Below are positions 4,046 to 28,159 of a stretch of 42,392 nucleotides of DNA, piece after piece. The translations under genes were made by a program, and so were the position numbers. The stretch comes from a virus. The notes under the pieces are model-generated. The model saw nothing but the letters and a program-made list of their open reading frames with translations. It was not told where the DNA came from and did not search any database. The stretch is taken from IMG/VR virus record IMGVR_UViG_3300008259_000205, positions 1 to 42,392 of that record; one strand, 5' to 3'. Numbering within the stretch: position 1 is the stretch's first letter; each line of letters starts with the position of its first letter.

Positions 4046-4417
4046 TTATCTACCAACTTCTCCTAAATAATTTTCTTTCATTTGTTCCCAACTCATTCCA
4101 ATAGCATCTATATAGAATAAATGTTCAGGTTTAATTCTACCTTCATCATGTAGTTTTGTGTATCTACTAATAGCATGTTTCTTCCACCACTTCTGAATGT
4201 ATTCATTACCTTGCTTAAACTTATCTTTAAGGATTAATTCATCCTCACCAATACGATTACATAGATAATCATTACCATTTTCATACATCATTGCCATATA
4301 CACACCTCTCTTAAAACCATGATGATAATCGGTAGCTTTAATACCACACTCTTTGAATATTTGGCTAAGAATTTTTTGCTTAATACCACTAACAGGTCCG
4401 TTAGCTTCATATCCCAT
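4046..4417 (-). CDS. C-terminal piece of a split DUF4338-like gene
   Basis: From the ATG at 4417 this gives 123 residues beginning MGYEANGPVSGIKQKILSQI and ending MSWEQMKENYLGEVGR. The same frame stays open upstream to 4516, before a TAG, with no ATG, and reads YYDPWHQWLKENRAEWY, which looks like real protein. From memory of related phage proteins, this piece and the 182-residue gene at 4512-5060 look like the two ends of one DUF4338 (DruA-like) family protein whose middle is absent here. The frames differ by +1 at the join. It may be a remnant or a separately started domain; the start at 4417 is uncertain. Confidence 0.5.
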   Translation of the reverse strand: MGYEANGPVSGIKQKILSQIFKECGIKATDYHHGFKRGVYMAMMYENGNDYLCNRIGEDELILKDKFKQGNEYIQKWWKKHAISRYTKLHDEGRIKPEHLFYIDAIGMSWEQMKENYLGEVGR

Positions 4418-4511
4418 ATTAGCACCATTACGAGCTCTCTCATCTGATATATTTTCTTTATACCATTCCGCACGATTTTCTTTTAACCATTGATGCCAAG
4501 GGTCATAATAC

Positions 4512-5060
4512 TTAACCTAATGGTTGAGTACATACAATTGTAGAAGCAATTGTGGTATGATTTAACTTACCATCAACAAATTTATTATCCTTAGTCCAAC
4601 CAATGTAGTTATCCCTAACTCCTAATGCAGTAACATCAGATGCTAATGAAATCTGTCCTAATAGTTTTCCACTAACTCTATCCTTTACATTAATCTTAAC
4701 ATTACGACCAGGGTTTGCTGTAAAATCCATTGTATGAATCATTCTACGGATTTGTGCCCATTTAGTAGATTCTTTTGGATTATCTTCAACAATTTCAACA
4801 TAAGGGTCTAACGATTCGATTTCTCTTACCGTTAGCTCCTTATTGTTGATATCGGTTGGTTTCCATTGAAGGTCATAATATGATGCTATTTGGGACTTAG
4901 CCTGAATTATTGATGGGTCTTGCAACTCCACCCACTTCTTATACAAAGTCTGCTCTTGCACACTCATTGTCATAAGGTAGTCCATATTTTCTTTTAACTT
5001 TTGTTTTTCAACATCAAAGTCAAAAACAGGTTTTTGTGGTTCAGTATCCCAAAAGCTCAT
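4512..5060 (-). CDS. N-terminal piece of a split DUF4338-like gene
   Basis: This 182-residue protein contains GKLLGQISLASDVTALGVRD followed by YIGWTKDNKF and LNHTTIASTIVCTQPLG, then stops. This order resembles the DUF4338 family (which includes Druantia DruA), where the segment LGxRDxxIGW is followed by a longer conserved region that is missing here. The next open segment, in the +1 frame from 4516, looks like the family C-terminus. An internal deletion, a frameshift or a deliberately shortened protein would explain this. It lies directly downstream of the clamp gene (5 bp), in the same operon. Function unknown; family assignment is from recall only. Confidence 0.5.
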   Translation of the reverse strand: MSFWDTEPQKPVFDFDVEKQKLKENMDYLMTMSVQEQTLYKKWVELQDPSIIQAKSQIASYYDLQWKPTDINNKELTVREIESLDPYVEIVEDNPKESTKWAQIRRMIHTMDFTANPGRNVKINVKDRVSGKLLGQISLASDVTALGVRDNYIGWTKDNKFVDGKLNHTTIASTIVCTQPLG

Positions 5061-5065
5061 AATGA

Positions 5066-5761
5066 TTATTTAATTTCTACAAGGTAATAATTAGAAGTGT
5101 AATCCCCATCAGTAAAGGAAACATGCGATAGTCCTTTAGATGAGATTTTCAACGAAGATGATTTAGAACCTTTGTTAGCCATTAGGATAGCCTTCAAATA
5201 CTTTGCTGAGAAAGCGATTGGTTCGATATCTTCATTACACTTACAATCCACTGCTAAAGAGATTCGGTTAGAGTTAATTGAAGAATACCCCAAAATAACT
5301 TCACCACTTCCACCCTTACAAGTGAAAGTAAATGTATCAGCATCAGCCAATGCACCTTTTGATTTGATGAACTTATTAATAAAGTCATCATTCAATGTAA
5401 TCTCCGCATCAAATGGAGGTAGTGTTTTTAAATCAGGTACTGCTGGGATTACAGAAGGCGCTGCCAACATATATTGTACCTTAGTTCCCTTATCAGAGAA
5501 CTTTAATGCTCCAGTTACTTCTTCAACTGAAATTGCCTCATCTAATACACTTAACAATCCTTTCAATTGTGTAGTTGTATAGATACCGAATTCACCATTT
5601 GGGAATTCACTTTCAGTAACAGTAACATCTCCCAATAGGGTCTTGTCATCTGAAATCATTCTTACTGAAAGATTTTGTTCATCGGATTTAACCATAACCG
5701 ATTCAATCTCACCACCGAGATTGTAACGATTAATAAAACCATCAAATTTACTTTTGTTCAT
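5066..5761 (-). CDS. 45: Sliding clamp, gp45-like
   Basis: This is a 231-residue protein with the length and beta-rich composition of T4 gp45 (228), the trimeric ring that tethers the polymerase and, in T4, also activates late transcription. Supporting stretches are MNKSKFDGFINRYNLGGEI at the N-terminus, FPNGEFGIYTTTQLKGLLSV near residue 80, and the C-terminal SHVSFTDGDYTSNYYLVEIK, similar to gp45-type ends. It has its own promoter 35 bp upstream and lies immediately downstream of the polymerase gene. Confidence 0.85.
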   Translation of the reverse strand: MNKSKFDGFINRYNLGGEIESVMVKSDEQNLSVRMISDDKTLLGDVTVTESEFPNGEFGIYTTTQLKGLLSVLDEAISVEEVTGALKFSDKGTKVQYMLAAPSVIPAVPDLKTLPPFDAEITLNDDFINKFIKSKGALADADTFTFTCKGGSGEVILGYSSINSNRISLAVDCKCNEDIEPIAFSAKYLKAILMANKGSKSSSLKISSKGLSHVSFTDGDYTSNYYLVEIK

Positions 5762-8227: not shown

Positions 8228-9361
8228 TTATGCTCTTAATTTTTTATGTAATTCTTCAATCATTCTATCTTCATTCAAAGATAATCTTCTTGCTGTTTGT
8301 ACAGCTTTTATATCTAGCTCACTACGATAATTATCGTCATCCAATATTTTATCTAACATAGTAAACAAATCTTTCTTTTGTGCAAAAAACAAACCATCGG
8401 GTTCAATTTCTCTATAACACAAAGATTCTTGATAAATCATAGGAGTTCCATTCATAAGGCAATCGGTAGCAGCAACACTCCAACCATAATTTGTTTGCCT
8501 CATTTGAATACCAACTTTACAACTTTGTAATCTTTGGTAATATTCATGCTTTGGTGATTTTGAATTATCAATCCAATTTTCAGGAGATTCACCATTCAAT
8601 TGTGGAATCCAAACAACAAAATCATTCCTACGTTGGCGATATTCTCTCATTAGTTCTAAAAACTTAGGATATCCCTTATATGCTGCTGCTCTATGGTTGA
8701 ATACGATAATATTTCGTTTACTATCAGATGGTGCTTCTACAATTTTAGATTGGTCTACACCCAAATTCCAAACCTTCAAAATACCATCTAATCTTTGAAC
8801 AAACTCTTCATTAAATGTTTCCCTTGCTTCTTCTAAAACTCTATTTTTTTGGTCCTGTGTATTTAGGTAGCAAGTATCCATTTGTGATACTCCCAATATT
8901 TCTATTGGTAACCATAACCACTTTGCCTTACCGGGTCTATTATCAGCACCATTTGATGATTTCATTTCCCACCAATGACAATATCCAACTATTTTGGTAT
9001 CCATACTTTTTTTATATCTACCAATTTGTGGCCAATCGGGCAAATGTGAGTATATAACATCATACTCAATATCTTTTAATAAGCCAATTAGTTTATCAGA
9101 TGGGAATGCCCTCTGATTCATCATATCACCAGGAATATCTATTTGATGTTGTTTTACATTTGGTAAGTTTAGTTTCTTTGTAACATTTCCCGTTGGTACT
9201 AATACATGCCAAAAATATTCACCATACTTTTCCAATGCCTTAATATGGTTATGAATAACATCAATAAAACTGTCTTTCTCAATATTAGAAGAGTTGGTGA
9301 TATTTGGAATCACCAACACCTTCCTACTATTCTTATAATCTATACTATCCCAAAACTGCAT
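8228..9361 (-). CDS. GT-B type glycosyltransferase
   Basis: This 377-residue protein looks like a GT-B fold glycosyltransferase (GT4-like). The N-terminal Rossmann half has RKVLVIPNITN and DVIYSHLPDWPQIGRYK. The C-terminal half has IIVFNHRAAAYKGYPKFLEL, then VGIQMRQTNYGWSVAATDCL and NGTPMIYQESLCYREI, a layout like the donor-sugar binding region with its conserved acidic residue. It overlaps the upstream ParB-like gene by TAATG and abuts the polymerase gene. T4 relatives glucosylate modified DNA, but DNA, virion or host surface are all possible acceptors here; the sequence does not decide. Confidence 0.7.
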   Translation of the reverse strand: MQFWDSIDYKNSRKVLVIPNITNSSNIEKDSFIDVIHNHIKALEKYGEYFWHVLVPTGNVTKKLNLPNVKQHQIDIPGDMMNQRAFPSDKLIGLLKDIEYDVIYSHLPDWPQIGRYKKSMDTKIVGYCHWWEMKSSNGADNRPGKAKWLWLPIEILGVSQMDTCYLNTQDQKNRVLEEARETFNEEFVQRLDGILKVWNLGVDQSKIVEAPSDSKRNIIVFNHRAAAYKGYPKFLELMREYRQRRNDFVVWIPQLNGESPENWIDNSKSPKHEYYQRLQSCKVGIQMRQTNYGWSVAATDCLMNGTPMIYQESLCYREIEPDGLFFAQKKDLFTMLDKILDDDNYRSELDIKAVQTARRLSLNEDRMIEELHKKLRA

Positions 9362-10548
9362 TAATCTAATTTTTCCATTTGTGCAACAACCTTATCATCA
9401 TTTATATAAACATCACCATAAACAACAACCATATTATCACTATGATTTTCTAAAACGTTTTTAATAGGTAATGTATGCCCACCCATTCCAGCAGATTTCC
9501 AATCTTTTGCTGTCAATGGTGTAAATATCAACAAAAATCTTTGAATACTTTCATCGTAAGCCATTAAAATATATTGACCTTCTCTGATACCCATACCACC
9601 TTTCCAAGAAGTAGATGCCCCATTGAAATTGGTAACTTTAATCTCAACTTTATCATCGATATCAATATGGTAGATATCAGGGTCAGTTGGGTGACCAGAT
9701 GCACATCGTACATTATGTCCTTCACTTTTTAGGACCTCACTTCCAATAGTTTCCATAAGATGGGAAATGTTTCCAGCGATAGAACCTTTTGTAAAGTCTT
9801 TATACGGAAAATAATCTTCACCATTAATTTTTACTTTCATTTCTAAAGTTGCGTGAATGGTGTTGTAAACACGATTCATCATAGCTTTAAAAAATTCAGG
9901 GGTGTATATTGTAGACCAATCTCTAGTAGGATTGTTCGATGTAACAATTGTTGGTTTGTTTCTACCAGTAGCCTCATCCCAAGCAGCTTTGATAGATATT
10001 TCAGTAGCATCAATCTTAGCAAGAAGTTCAGGCATCTTATCTTTGATATCTATGAGCTTTTTCATAGTATCTCTGGAGATTCCCAATTCTTTAAGATGGG
10101 TATTTTCTTCATTAGTACTTCTAGCTATTCCATTTTGAGTTACATATGCAGTATTCATCTGAATGAATTCATTCATCTTAACAGATGGTGTCATTTTTCT
10201 ATATATGTTTGAACTTCTAACCGCTTGTAGTGTATCATATGGATTGTTTTTAAAATCAGGGTATGGTTTATCGGTATATTCAACCCAAATATCACAACCC
10301 GCCATTATACCAGCAGCTCTACGGGTATTGCCAGCATCAACTACACCATCTTCCCATATCATAATAGGTTGTTCATTTGGACAAAGTCCTTCAGAAATTC
10401 TTATTTTATAAGATTCTGCTATCTTTTCCCTTGTTTTTAGTTCTTCTTCACTATTTGTGTATATGGTAGAATTTAAAGGGTTTTCTTTAAGCATTTTTGG
10501 GTTTACAAACATTCTACCTTTTCTTTTGGTAACTTTTAACTTTGACAT
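9361..10548 (-). CDS. ParB-domain protein with nuclease-like C-terminus
   Basis: In this 395-residue protein, residues about 10-130 form a ParB/sulfiredoxin-like domain: MFVNPKMLKENPLN, then IMIWEDGVVDAGNTRRAAGI (the GNTRRAA matches the ParB G-x-x-R-x-x-A nucleotide-binding box). A helical middle follows. The C-terminal third has GSEVLKSEGHNVRCASGHP then DIYHIDIDDKVEIKVTNF, a D-x(n)-E-x-K arrangement typical of PD-(D/E)xK nucleases. The next gene upstream, across a promoter, is a Mom-like modification gene. A nuclease that senses or complements modification state is an inference; a non-catalytic DNA-binding role is possible. Confidence 0.65.
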   Translation of the reverse strand: MSKLKVTKRKGRMFVNPKMLKENPLNSTIYTNSEEELKTREKIAESYKIRISEGLCPNEQPIMIWEDGVVDAGNTRRAAGIMAGCDIWVEYTDKPYPDFKNNPYDTLQAVRSSNIYRKMTPSVKMNEFIQMNTAYVTQNGIARSTNEENTHLKELGISRDTMKKLIDIKDKMPELLAKIDATEISIKAAWDEATGRNKPTIVTSNNPTRDWSTIYTPEFFKAMMNRVYNTIHATLEMKVKINGEDYFPYKDFTKGSIAGNISHLMETIGSEVLKSEGHNVRCASGHPTDPDIYHIDIDDKVEIKVTNFNGASTSWKGGMGIREGQYILMAYDESIQRFLLIFTPLTAKDWKSAGMGGHTLPIKNVLENHSDNMVVVYGDVYINDDKVVAQMEKLD

Positions 10549-10584
10549 AAATTTTAGGGTTTAATTTTTTAAATTGTTAATACT

Positions 10585-10616
10585 CAAATATACGAATAAT
10601 ACCCCAGTTTTCCAAA
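10585..10616 (-). promoter_or_regulatory. Bacteroidota-type promoter (P3)
   Basis: Minus-strand TTTGG (10612-10616), 20 nt, TATATTTG (10585-10592). It lies 36 bp upstream of the ParB-like gene and starts the ParB-glycosyltransferase-polymerase unit. Confidence 0.85.
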
Positions 10617-10664
10617 TAATTTGAGGTATTTTTTGTAACTGATTGATTATCAATGAGTTATATA

Positions 10665-11465
10665 TTACCAAAAATTTGCAGCCCCTTCCGGCGCTTCGTA
10701 TGTAGTTAGGTGATGTACCACTTCTGTGTTGTATGAAGCGGTGTCCTTTGGATAGGGTCTAATTTCGTGCTTTAATCGTTTCATCAAATCCTTCTTCTCT
10801 TTCTTATCTTGTGCAAGTATTTGAACATATCTATGTTTTGGTGGTTCTTCCCTTCTCCAAAACTCTTTGTATCCTTGCTTACCAATTTCCATTTGTAAGT
10901 GTGCTAAGTTACCACTACCCCATAATGAAAAAACAGTCCTACTATGAATCCATTGATATGGGTCTTTGTGTAATGATATACCCCAATTTGGCATCAATGC
11001 AATATCCGTAGATAATCCTTGATAAATCCAATTGGTAGCCTGATAGATTCCTCCTAAGTGAGCCTGTCCATTATCAGCATATGAAAGTAGAACTTTAATA
11101 TCCTTATCGTTTTCCTTTAACCATTTGAAAGATTGTCCTAATGCGTATGATTCGATATTAGAACCATAACCATCATCACAATATAAACGGGTCAATTCTA
11201 AAATGTTATCTTTGGTTAATCCTTCACAAATAGAAGTGGATGCCTTTGCTCCAACAGGAAAACCATAGATTAAACAACCTATAAGTTTATCACCATCAAA
11301 GGTATTAGCATCTTCTGATTTGTAATATATTCCGATTGCATATCTACAAGCTGTCCAAGCATGCGTATAGTGTTTCTTTACGATTATATCTTTAGCAATT
11401 GATTTTGCTATTGGTGCAACATACACTTTAGATACATCACAATAATTTTTACCTTCTACTTTCAT
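10665..11465 (-). CDS. Mom-like DNA modification protein (copy 1)
   Basis: This 266-residue protein resembles phage Mu Mom, the GNAT-fold enzyme that converts adenine to N6-carbamoylmethyl-adenine. Shared features, in order: KSIAKDIIVKKHYTHAW near residue 17, LIGCLIYGFPVG, ILELTRLYCDDGYGSNIES (Mom has LELNR...NSES), an amphipathic SFKWLKEN helix, VLLSYADNGQAHLGGIYQAT and NWIYQG (Mom has SFAD..GDGTIYRA). It is paralogous over most of its length to the protein at 12207-12980. Its ATG overlaps the upstream stop as ATGA. The exact modification cannot be read from sequence. Confidence 0.8.
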   Translation of the reverse strand: MKVEGKNYCDVSKVYVAPIAKSIAKDIIVKKHYTHAWTACRYAIGIYYKSEDANTFDGDKLIGCLIYGFPVGAKASTSICEGLTKDNILELTRLYCDDGYGSNIESYALGQSFKWLKENDKDIKVLLSYADNGQAHLGGIYQATNWIYQGLSTDIALMPNWGISLHKDPYQWIHSRTVFSLWGSGNLAHLQMEIGKQGYKEFWRREEPPKHRYVQILAQDKKEKKDLMKRLKHEIRPYPKDTASYNTEVVHHLTTYEAPEGAANFW

Positions 11466-11821
11466 ACTAAATCTTTAATCTTAATTAAGAATCCAAGTGA
11501 TGTATTATTATCACCACCTTTTACACCCATCCTAGCTTTCTTATCTTTTACCAATTGTTCAATCTTTCTTTTTAACTCATCGGTTTCGATTACAATTGCT
11601 TGCTTTTCTGATATTTTGTAAACCCAATAATCAGCTTGGGTAGTTCTTATTCCAGATGGTTTACCCCTACTTTCATATTCAATATAAACGTTACCGGTTT
11701 TCTGACTCATTCTATCTGATTTAACTTCGAATTTGGAGTTACTAACTATATTATGAAACCAGCTTTCGCCTTCCACAATACCATATTCCAAATCATATCT
11801 AAAATCAGAGTTGTAATTCAT
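11462..11821 (-). CDS. Small PD-(D/E)xK nuclease-like protein
   Basis: From the ATG at 11821 (MNYNSDFRYDLEYG) this encodes 119 residues. The core SKFEVKSDRM followed by GNVYIEYESRGKPSGIRTTQ and ADYWVY matches a recurring phage PD-(D/E)xK fold (D/E-x-K in FEVKSD, then a second acidic strand). I chose the ATG that overlaps the previous stop as TAATG rather than the TTG two codons earlier. It overlaps the downstream Mom-like gene as ATGA, so three genes here are translationally chained. It could be a resolvase-like or restriction-type nuclease; activity is unproven. Confidence 0.6.
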   Translation of the reverse strand: MNYNSDFRYDLEYGIVEGESWFHNIVSNSKFEVKSDRMSQKTGNVYIEYESRGKPSGIRTTQADYWVYKISEKQAIVIETDELKRKIEQLVKDKKARMGVKGGDNNTSLGFLIKIKDLV

Positions 11822-12186
11822 TACCAATAACCTTTATCTTCTTTTAATTTAACTTTTTTAGCAGTAGGTTTAGTTTGTTTTTTTGTTTCAACCTTAGTTT
11901 CTACTTTGGTTGTTTCTTTTTTAGCCTTAGCTTTTTTTCGTTTTTCATCCAACTTAGCAAAAGCATCATGCAATTGACCAATTTTACCTTTTTTCTCTAA
12001 TGCAGCTTTTTTCTGCATTTCTTTGAACATTTTATCATATCCCGGTGGATATTTTTGCTCAACTGATATAGGTCCATTTGTGGTCCTATCTAAATCATAT
12101 TTCCATATCGATTCCCCGCCATCATCATCTTTATAAACTATTTGAAATTTGCGTGGTTTTTCTGGTGGTGTTTTTGATACTGCCAT
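11821..12186 (-). CDS. Basic-tailed hypothetical protein
   Basis: This is a 121-residue protein with a structured N-terminal half (FQIVYKDDDGGESIWKYDL, then EQKYPPGYDKMFKEMQK) and a lysine-rich, low-complexity tail from about residue 75 that repeats KVETK units, ending in KEDKGYW. The tail would bind nucleic acid or be disordered. It has its own promoter 8 bp before the ATG, so the mRNA would be nearly leaderless. Located between the two Mom-like genes and coupled to the PD-(D/E)xK-like gene. Not recognised as a known family. Confidence 0.6.
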   Translation of the reverse strand: MAVSKTPPEKPRKFQIVYKDDDGGESIWKYDLDRTTNGPISVEQKYPPGYDKMFKEMQKKAALEKKGKIGQLHDAFAKLDEKRKKAKAKKETTKVETKVETKKQTKPTAKKVKLKEDKGYW

Positions 12187-12193
12187 AATAATA

Positions 12194-12225
12194 CAAATAT
12201 ACTAATTTATTCTGATAATTCCAAA
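12194..12225 (-). promoter_or_regulatory. Bacteroidota-type promoter (P4)
   Basis: Minus-strand TTTGG (12221-12225), 20 nt, TATATTTG (12194-12201). The -33 box sits inside the end of the upstream Mom-like gene, giving the second half of the modification cluster its own promoter. Confidence 0.8.
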
Positions 12226-12980
12226 TTTATCGGCTCCATTTTATGAACCTCATCTATAATATCCAATTCTATCTTTGGATATGGGAACACCTCATGTTTA
12301 AGCGATTTTAAGAGGGTCTTACGTTGCTTCTTATCCTTTGTTAGAATATACACATATCGATGCTTACGGGGTTCTCTCTTAATCCAGAATGGGCTCGTAA
12401 CCATTGTCTGAATTATCTTCGGGTCATTCGTTCCGTATTTTACATAGGATGTCCGAGAATGATGCCACTCATCATCTTCGTTCCATTTAAAACTCCAACT
12501 ATCACTCCAACGAATTTTGTTACCTTGATATATCCAATTAGTAGCTTGATATACCGTTCCCAAGTGTCCAGCATTTGGGTCTGAATATGATATAAGGGCT
12601 TTTATATGTGGTGCGTTTTCTCTTAACCAATTAAATGTTTGCCCAACAAACCAACTTTCAATGTTACTACCATACCCATCAAATACAAACAGGCGAGTCA
12701 ATTCCAAAACTTCAGTTCTACCTAACATTTCAGAAATTGATGCGCCTGCATTTCTACCAACCGGGTCACCATAGCAAGCTACCCCAATTAGTTGTTCGTT
12801 TACACCACTAAAAAAAGAATGCTCTTCATCAGATAAATAAAACAAACCTATTGCATAGGATACCTTTGTCCATATTCCACTGTAGTGGTTGTTGACAATA
12901 ATATCCTTAGCAATACTTTTGTTTATTTCTCTTACAGAAAGTTTTGATATATCGCAATATAGTTTTCCTTCTACTTTCAT
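12207..12980 (-). CDS. Mom-like DNA modification protein (copy 2)
   Basis: This 257-residue protein is a diverged paralogue of the one at 10665-11465. The shared opening is MKVEGKLYCDISKL (copy 1: MKVEGKNYCDVSKV), then IAKDIIVNNHYSGIW, LIGVACYGDPVG, VLELTRLFVFDGYGSNIES, ALISYSDPNAGHLGTVYQAT and NWIYQG, and the end RKHRYVYILTKDKKQRK. These are the Mom-type GNAT motifs. Between LFY and LIGV it carries a few extra residues. Two diverged copies suggest different substrates, partners or sequence contexts rather than simple dosage. Its ATG overlaps the upstream HTH gene stop as ATGA. Confidence 0.8.
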   Translation of the reverse strand: MKVEGKLYCDISKLSVREINKSIAKDIIVNNHYSGIWTKVSYAIGLFYLSDEEHSFFSGVNEQLIGVACYGDPVGRNAGASISEMLGRTEVLELTRLFVFDGYGSNIESWFVGQTFNWLRENAPHIKALISYSDPNAGHLGTVYQATNWIYQGNKIRWSDSWSFKWNEDDEWHHSRTSYVKYGTNDPKIIQTMVTSPFWIKREPRKHRYVYILTKDKKQRKTLLKSLKHEVFPYPKIELDIIDEVHKMEPINLELSE

Positions 12981-13180
12981 AAGCTACCAGACCAAAATTC
13001 ATTTAGATGTGACCAAGTTTTACGTTGGATTATCTTCATTACATTGGCCGGTGATACCTTATGATTTCGAGCTATCACCTTTACATTTCGGTGACCCATA
13101 CTCCACAACTTTCTGATGCTTAGAACTTGGTCATCTGTCAACTTTGCAGCTGGATGAGATTGTCCTCTTAAAATAGCCAT
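12977..13180 (-). CDS. Small helix-turn-helix protein
   Basis: This 67-residue protein is dominated by one HTH unit: AAKLTDDQVLSIRKLW, then VKVIARNHKVSPANVMKIIQ and RKTWSHL. This is the DNA-binding module commonly attached to phage HNH/homing endonucleases, here without any nuclease domain. It starts the Mom-like cluster and overlaps the next gene as ATGA, so it could regulate the cluster or be a homing-endonuclease remnant that has been kept as a DNA-binding protein. Confidence 0.65.
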   Translation of the reverse strand: MAILRGQSHPAAKLTDDQVLSIRKLWSMGHRNVKVIARNHKVSPANVMKIIQRKTWSHLNEFWSGSL

Positions 13181-27547: not shown

Positions 27548-28159
27548 TTAAAATTTATGTTCCTTTTGGTTACATTTTACTTCGTAAGATTCCCAACCTT
27601 TATCAGGTCTTGCATTTGGGAATGAATAACATTTCCATACGTTTGATTTTTCAAAGTGGATATGTTTGTGTAATTTTGAAGGAATTGCTGCATTTGTAGG
27701 AACTCTTTTAGCTGGATTATCAAAGTTTAAATTAATAATTACTGTCAATGATTCCTTATCATCCCATTTTCTTTCTTGCTCTTCCAATAATCTCCACTCA
27801 CCTCTATTAAGGTATTGGTCTTGCATTATTGAATTTAAATAAGAAAACGTTTGTTTTAAATTTGTTTCATTATCAGAAAATGTTGCAGCCGGTGCACCAT
27901 GTCCTTTATCATATATGTTTCCTTTGTAATCCATATCATCCGAAGTTTTAATACTTTTTTCAGTATAAAAATTCATATGACCTCTATTAACATTTGTAGG
28001 TCTGTTTGTAGAACGATACTTTATATAAAGGGGTTGTTCTAAAGATTGAGAGTACATTACCTCAAAAACTTCATTTTTCACTCTTACAACATCACTTTGT
28101 TGAGCTGCTCCAAATAGTCCAATAATTAGGAAAGGGAGAATGTATAGGAATCTTTTCAT
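27548..28159 (-). CDS. Secreted NUC1-like endonuclease
   Basis: This 203-residue DNA/RNA non-specific endonuclease begins with a clear signal peptide (MKRFLYILPFLIIGLFGAAQ, likely cut in GAAQ|Q). The NUC1 site is YDKGHGAPAATFS (DRGH variant with Lys, general-base His kept), followed by the metal-binding helix SYLNSIMQDQYLNRGEW, equivalent to the N-x-x-P-Q...LNxGxW signature. Export to the periplasm or outside is expected. A phage enzyme there could degrade DNA released at lysis or incoming competitor DNA. An ATATTTAT octamer lies 23 nt upstream. Confidence 0.8.
   Translation of the reverse strand: MKRFLYILPFLIIGLFGAAQQSDVVRVKNEVFEVMYSQSLEQPLYIKYRSTNRPTNVNRGHMNFYTEKSIKTSDDMDYKGNIYDKGHGAPAATFSDNETNLKQTFSYLNSIMQDQYLNRGEWRLLEEQERKWDDKESLTVIINLNFDNPAKRVPTNAAIPSKLHKHIHFEKSNVWKCYSFPNARPDKGWESYEVKCNQKEHKF

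Follow-up and report, generated by a model that had tools for sequence, protein, structure and literature searches.

The window analysed here, a 42,392-base virus contig from IMG/VR (IMGVR_UViG_3300008259_000205) coding almost entirely on the minus strand, carries two paralogues of the Mom family of DNA modification proteins, Mom2 and Mom1, followed by a predicted nuclease with a ParB-like domain, a glycosyltransferase (GT) and a family B DNA polymerase (PolB). In related contigs the Mom pair is fixed, whereas the position between Mom1 and GT behaves as a slot for single, exchangeable genes placed behind a common putative operator and promoter. The constant element is the slot, not the particular ParB-nuclease; its occupant changes. 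We put at about one half the probability that Mom modification protects the phage DNA while the exchangeable nuclease attacks non-self DNA, the two forming a self/non-self discrimination module of T4-like phages.

Mom of phage Mu makes an acetamido-adenine that blocks restriction. Both window proteins match the Mom family profile (PF25680) over nearly its full length and far above the cut-off of 27.1 bits, Mom2 with an E-value of 1.2e-45 (156 bits) and Mom1 with 3.8e-44 (151 bits). Both also match PHROG 1384 ('Mom-like DNA modification protein'). Among sequences with a solved structure, Mom2 matches Mu Mom (PDB 8BV8, crystal structure, E = 5e-10). The two proteins are 52% identical. In an alignment that included SfMu Mom and ten further Moms of cultured phages, catalytic residues were judged by conservation. 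Mom2 retains H32-Y, E93-L-x-R, S131-x-x-D, Y144-x-A-x-N and K-H-R-Y, and Mom1 retains H32-Y, E90-L-x-R, S128-x-x-D, Y141-x-A-x-N and K-H-R-Y; the columns common to both and to their cultured relatives are HY, E-L-x-R, S-x-x-D, G-x-x-Y-x-A-x-N and a C-terminal R-Y. Judged by sequence, Mom1 and Mom2 are new members of a known family. The first-pass annotation had placed two Mom-family proteins with shared motifs at 10665-11465 and 12207-12980 and had pointed to the catalytic residues as the place where this assignment could fail; its coordinates are right, and the family-conserved residues are kept in both proteins. The gene overlaps that it described are present as well: ATGA between the helix-turn-helix (HTH) gene and Mom2, TAATG between the genes for a basic and a small protein, and ATGA between the latter and Mom1.

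In the phylogenetic tree, Mom1 and Mom2 form two reciprocal clades, which implies a single old duplication that predates the diversification of the group (the Mom2 row of L084 is an artefact of a truncated contig). Ratios of nonsynonymous to synonymous substitution rates (dN/dS) of 0.07 for Mom2 and 0.11 for Mom1, close to those of PolB (0.07) and ribonucleotide reductase (RNR, 0.08), indicate purifying selection on both. Mom1 is present in 55 of 55 related contigs that bear Mom2 with at least 4.5 kb of DNA downstream, a recurrence that excludes chance, and the long Mom-carrying records that were searched (72–253 kb) hold exactly two Moms each. By comparison, of 313 records of cultured phages that match Mom, none does so in two places. 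No com gene was seen beside the Moms of the window.

The surrounding block is mostly constant in relatives and reads RNR, thioredoxin (Trx), HTH, Mom2, basic protein, Mom1, slot, GT, PolB. Across 59 loci the position between Mom1 and GT takes 12 states, including empty. Its occupants fall into about eleven sequence clusters; comparison of profiles merges these into about five groups. The first combines ParB with a restriction endonuclease (REase) fold and comprises the window protein, c14 and the distant c38; the second, c4, combines ParB with a SegE-like GIY-YIG domain (E = 0.02). The third is GmrSD-like, with DUF262 and HNH domains (c3, c9 and c29); c3 matches GmrSD_N (PF03235) at E = 5.5e-7, below the cut-off of that profile, and has a C-terminal HNH domain. 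Proteins of about 600 residues with a weak resemblance to the ParB family (c5, c13, c21 and perhaps c23) form the fourth group, and c28 the fifth. The window type is found in a minority of relatives only. A slot holds at most one catalogued nuclease family, never two together. Mapped on the tree of Mom1 and Mom2, slot states changed 28 times, against a minimum of 11, and near-identical Moms are accompanied by different occupants or by none. Within families, close pairs of slot nucleases show dN/dS values of 0.08–0.19, indicating that these genes, too, are under purifying selection. Single-sequence scans with slot proteins yielded few new contexts. In a 214-kb relative, the position before GT and PolB (L193:6355-6861) is taken by a 168-aa protein in which a restriction-enzyme-like stretch, ADGIDSDGDCEYKS, was recognized by eye only.

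The window's own slot protein has no Pfam family match, GmrSD families included. Its AlphaFold2 model (mean predicted local distance difference test, pLDDT, 81) divides into two parts. Residues ~11–198 resemble ParB proteins (Z = 9.9; KorB 8qa8 and ParB 7bnk) with a root-mean-square deviation (rmsd) of ~2 over 80–84 residues, whereas residues ~205–395 resemble the restriction enzyme NaeI (Z = 9.8, rmsd 3.5 over 151 residues) and, further, SfiI (Z = 7.9), SwaI (7.8) and EcoRV (about 7). The PD-(D/E)xK residues D289, D291 and E302-x-K304 are conserved in relatives, except in the most distant row (L080), which is probably misaligned. The modelled fold and these residues bear out the earlier description of a ParB plus nuclease-like protein and confirm it as a ParB domain fused to a NaeI/EcoRV-like restriction-enzyme fold, a predicted nuclease. 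A GmrSD type IV enzyme (DUF262 plus DUF1524/HNH), also considered for this protein, is ruled out by the ParB and REase fold and the lack of a GmrSD Pfam match.

The 116-nt spacer before the nuclease gene contains both a palindromic box and a Bacteroidota-type promoter (Table 1). The box is a single site in the window; with up to 3 mismatches allowed, chance alone would give 0.06 sites. At this tolerance it lies upstream of 40 of 49 slot genes, across unrelated families, and is missing from all 166 regions upstream of RNR, Mom2 and PolB that served as controls; the promoter precedes 43 of the 49. Where both were found, the box-to-promoter distance is 42–43 nt in about two thirds of cases, and most of the rest are about one helical turn shorter or longer. 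The centre of the box would thus lie near −64, the position where class I activators bind. Given this spacing and the absence of a T-run after the box on the coding strand, we rejected a terminator and prefer to read the box as an activator or operator site. The spacer is missing along with the gene from the empty slots (L039, L042 and L044). In two longer relatives the box recurs about ten or more times, mostly between genes, and it does not do so in others; it therefore appears to be a phage regulatory site common to the cassettes. In G009, G013 and G014 (L115-L123) the box, AACTnATTGATnATCAATnAGTT, is recurrent in intergenic regions, often as close pairs; the relatives G010, G011 and G015 have no more than weak matches to it.

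Further evidence comes from relatives with other modification genes. A ParB-nuclease 50% identical to that of the window lies in a DNA-modification cluster of another phage, in contigs without a Mom match. This cluster (L087:3402-9209) comprises an N6/N4 methyltransferase, a pyridoxal phosphate (PLP) enzyme, a GT related to that of the window, a gene of the TAGT glycosyltransferase family and the ParB-REase nuclease; Mom was not found in the L087 contig. In L190, related by its polymerase, three tandem N6/N4 methyltransferases (L190:2251-4633) stand between RNR-Trx-HTH and PolB, and the HTH–PolB interval of this one contig has no Mom, nuclease or GT. The L087-type cluster and the L190 methyltransferases suggest that the HTH–PolB interval serves as a locus for DNA modification, and that the ParB-nuclease tends to occur among genes of this kind. 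Microcystis phage Mel-JY01, the nearest cultured relative by PolB, has no annotated Mom near PolB. Among the cultured-phage Moms inspected, most lack a neighbouring nuclease or ParB gene, the exceptions being Appa (ParB-like) and CRP-902 (VRR nuclease); in BarnCat an HNH gene lies two genes away.

The modification chemistry, the nuclease activity, its target and the protection, as we infer them, would fit together as follows. The two core Mom enzymes would put a bulky group on phage DNA, at adenine N6 by analogy with Mu Mom, the paralogues perhaps covering two sequence contexts. Such a mark would render the DNA resistant to many nucleases at once, and the separately promoted nuclease between Mom1 and the DNA polymerase would cut DNA lacking it, either the host chromosome or the DNA of a rival phage. 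With a mark this broad, nucleases could be exchanged and the antidote left unchanged, which, we propose, is why unrelated nucleases occupy one position behind the same operator and promoter. More tentatively, and with rather less confidence than in the general reading, we suggest that the fixed Mom pair serves as a universal antidote and that the single operator-controlled cassette position takes interchangeable ParB-superfamily nucleases (REase, GIY-YIG or HNH), a different weapon in each lineage against host or rival DNA. The first-pass annotation had likewise proposed a modification set paired with nucleases. This is still the best reading, given the core Moms, a slot that is repeatedly nuclease-like and the ParB-nuclease relative in a second modification cluster; what did not hold is the set of partners named, since the ParB-nuclease is not constant and a small PD-(D/E)xK protein is neither verified nor conserved.

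Several observations weigh against this interpretation. Eleven of the 59 loci have Moms and no catalogued slot nuclease, and several marine relatives have the Mom pair elsewhere in the genome, away from nuclease, GT and PolB; the Moms therefore cannot just be the modification partner of a restriction enzyme. The stable co-inheritance of cognate nuclease and modification enzyme that marks type II restriction-modification is not seen, the slot having changed 28 times while the Moms persisted. In G004 the ParB-nuclease is tens of kilobases from the Moms, and this distance, together with the relocated marine Moms, means that the linkage is not obligatory. The case for c5, c13, c21, c23 and c28 as nucleases is weak: the best ParB-family match of the c5 fold (Z = 6.2) lies within background, and the c5 model has no Foldseek match at E ≤ 0.001. 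Finally, homing endonucleases, too, typically turn over rapidly beside a polymerase gene.

Three other explanations were weighed. The strongest of them, though in our view rather unlikely, is that slot proteins are modification-dependent, type IV-like weapons against rival phages with other base modifications, the ParB/DUF262 domain sensing foreign modified bases and the HNH, GIY-YIG or REase domain cutting, while the Moms independently counter host restriction. Indeed, one large slot family combines GmrSD_N (DUF262) with HNH, the N-terminus of c5 is weakly similar to ParB, BrxU and SspE, and GmrSD-type enzymes cut modified T-even DNA (PMC3874153, PMC4619093). However, the predicted catalytic fold of the window nuclease is NaeI/EcoRV/SwaI-like and not GmrSD plus HNH, and no modified target is known for slot proteins.

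Somewhat less probable again is that the occupants are free-standing homing endonucleases, selfish genes that colonize the gap between mom1 and the polymerase by cutting alleles without them, the Moms being incidental. High turnover, the empty alleles, the position beside RNR and PolB, the GIY-YIG and HNH domains of slot families and, in the adjacent slot of L005, a NUMOD3 GIY-YIG gene all fit this view, and turnover beside core genes and GIY-YIG/HNH domains are shared with the Seg and Mob enzymes of T4-like phages. Yet slot proteins carry ParB/DUF262 domains, which to our knowledge are not normally found on homing genes, and differ from Seg and Mob also in their modification-gene context and in the one operator and promoter common to unrelated families, with spacing and helical phase largely kept. 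Moreover, a slot holds one catalogued family at most, and the relative of the window nuclease lies in a separate DNA-modification cluster. It is improbable that the Moms merely shield against host restriction, the nuclease (degrading host DNA for nucleotides) and GT (glycosylating surface or DNA) being functionally unlinked accessory genes: although Moms persist without a slot nuclease and away from it, and Mu Mom is a known anti-restriction enzyme (PMC6483171), modification and nuclease genes are also found together in contigs that have no Mom match, and Mom, nuclease and GT are jointly absent from L190, which has methyltransferases instead.

The logic of protection and attack is not new in itself. 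Iyer et al. 2021 (PMC7824862) predicted for jumbo phages that the phage DNA is shielded by Mom and that associated nuclease domains attack the host or superinfecting phages, so the central idea of the first-pass annotation had been anticipated; nor are several Moms per phage new, as PA5oct has five (PMC7824862). The jumbo-phage proteins are Mom-REase fusions, whereas here the REase-fold nuclease is one state of a separate, separately promoted gene that changes family and carries ParB/DUF262 domains, and the tandem Mom is fixed in the clade. Mu Mom shares family and the HY, E-L-x-R, S-x-x-D, Y-x-A-x-N and R-Y columns with the window proteins, but it is single; the two paralogues here have no visible com, lie in the polymerase/RNR block of a large T4-like phage and have a nuclease slot nearby. 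The type IV enzymes GmrSD and BrxU resemble slot family c3 in its ParB-like DUF262 and C-terminal HNH domains (PF03235 below cut-off); the slot genes, by contrast, are phage-encoded beside Moms, and the window protein is of the ParB plus REase type. Type II restriction-modification likewise sets a modification enzyme beside an REase-fold nuclease, but here the modification is, by family, of the Mom type and not methylation, the nuclease changes while the modification genes stay constant, and the system is phage-borne. In open papers, to which our search was limited, we found no description of a fixed Mom tandem with an exchangeable single-nuclease slot, ParB/DUF262 domains and a common operator and promoter. 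As far as these papers go, this combination is new, and to that extent the claim of an undescribed arrangement stands.

Table 1. Features of the Mom locus, in window coordinates
Feature	Position	Strand	Basis
Glycosyltransferase (GT4/GT1-like)	8228..9361	−	sub-threshold Pfam Glyco_transf_4, E = 1e-5
Slot nuclease, ParB-like domain plus predicted type II restriction endonuclease fold, 395 aa	9361..10548	−	AlphaFold2 model, fold matches
Bacteroidota-type promoter TTTG-N20-TAnnTTTG before slot nuclease	10585..10616	−	motif match
Palindrome AACTCATTGATAATCAATCAGTTA, putative operator or activator site for slot nuclease	10636..10659	−	0 mismatches
Mom1, second Mom-family protein, 266 aa	10665..11465	−	PF25680, PHROG 1384
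Small protein, PD-(D/E)xK-like by eye only, 121 aa	11462..11827	−	PHROG 13596 (unknown function), E = 1.8e-27
Lysine-rich basic protein, 121 aa	11821..12186	−	N-terminal part conserved in relatives; slot-a family c1, 39 loci
Mom2, Mom-family DNA modification protein, 257 aa	12207..12980	−	PF25680, PHROG 1384, PDB 8BV8
Small HTH-like protein, 67 aa	12977..13180	−	ATGA overlap with Mom2; weak HTH matches

Among the neighbouring genes, GT had been missed by the first-pass annotation. It overlaps the ParB-nuclease gene by TAATG and meets the DNA polymerase gene at a TAA-ATG junction, and in relatives it keeps its position before PolB in three subtypes; its 36% identical relative in L087 adjoins the TAGT DNA-glycosyltransferase-family gene. 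The HTH-like gene is conserved upstream of Mom2. Its assignment received weak support from sub-threshold Pfam HTH matches, and among PHROGs the protein matches the C-terminal part of HNH-endonuclease families (E = 2e-6). Homology to the HTH protein beside Mom in phage BarnCat was rejected, the comparison having found none. The small protein at 11462-11827, previously read as PD-(D/E)xK-like, has no Pfam, NCBIfam or PDB match, and no relatives of it were found in related Mom loci, which leaves that reading unverified. It is carried at a second variable position, which lies between Mom2 and Mom1; what relatives carry there includes the NUMOD3 GIY-YIG gene of L005, a RimK-like ATP-grasp protein and a DNA methyltransferase. 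In relatives, a DruA-like gene (PF14236, Druantia) has a conserved position after Mom1 or after PolB. In many relatives of clade B (L048-L081) an intact DruA-like protein of ~408 aa is encoded directly downstream of Mom1, a defence-type protein within a phage modification locus; the copy in the window (4049-5069, minus strand) is broken, and comparison with L105 shows that ~67 codons are absent between its two pieces.

Its genes mark the window as part of a large T4-like phage genome: it encodes tail tube gp19, a baseplate protein, gp32, the clamp loader, a RecA/UvsX-like protein, a PolB whose closest cultured-phage match is that of Mel-JY01 (49.5% identity) and both RNR subunits. A DNA/RNA non-specific endonuclease is also present (27551-28159, minus strand; PF01223, E = 1e-20). 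The host is probably a member of Bacteroidota, because promoters of the Bacteroidota type (TTTG-N-TAnnTTTG) are in excess in the window (14 observed, 3.2 expected), the nearest cultured Mom relative is that of Polaribacter phage P12002L, and one relative has a TonB-receptor-like gene that reads as being of Bacteroidota type.

If the proposed reading is correct, one broad base modification would uncouple self-protection from nuclease specificity and thereby leave these phages free to swap nucleases. The slot would then provide tractable ParB/DUF262 nucleases with three types of catalytic domain, all of which the same modified genome would have to tolerate; with them one could test directly what the Mom marks guard against and for what reason the phage keeps two Moms. 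Furthermore, the conserved putative operator marks the cassette and could help to detect genes of this kind in phages that have not been cultured.

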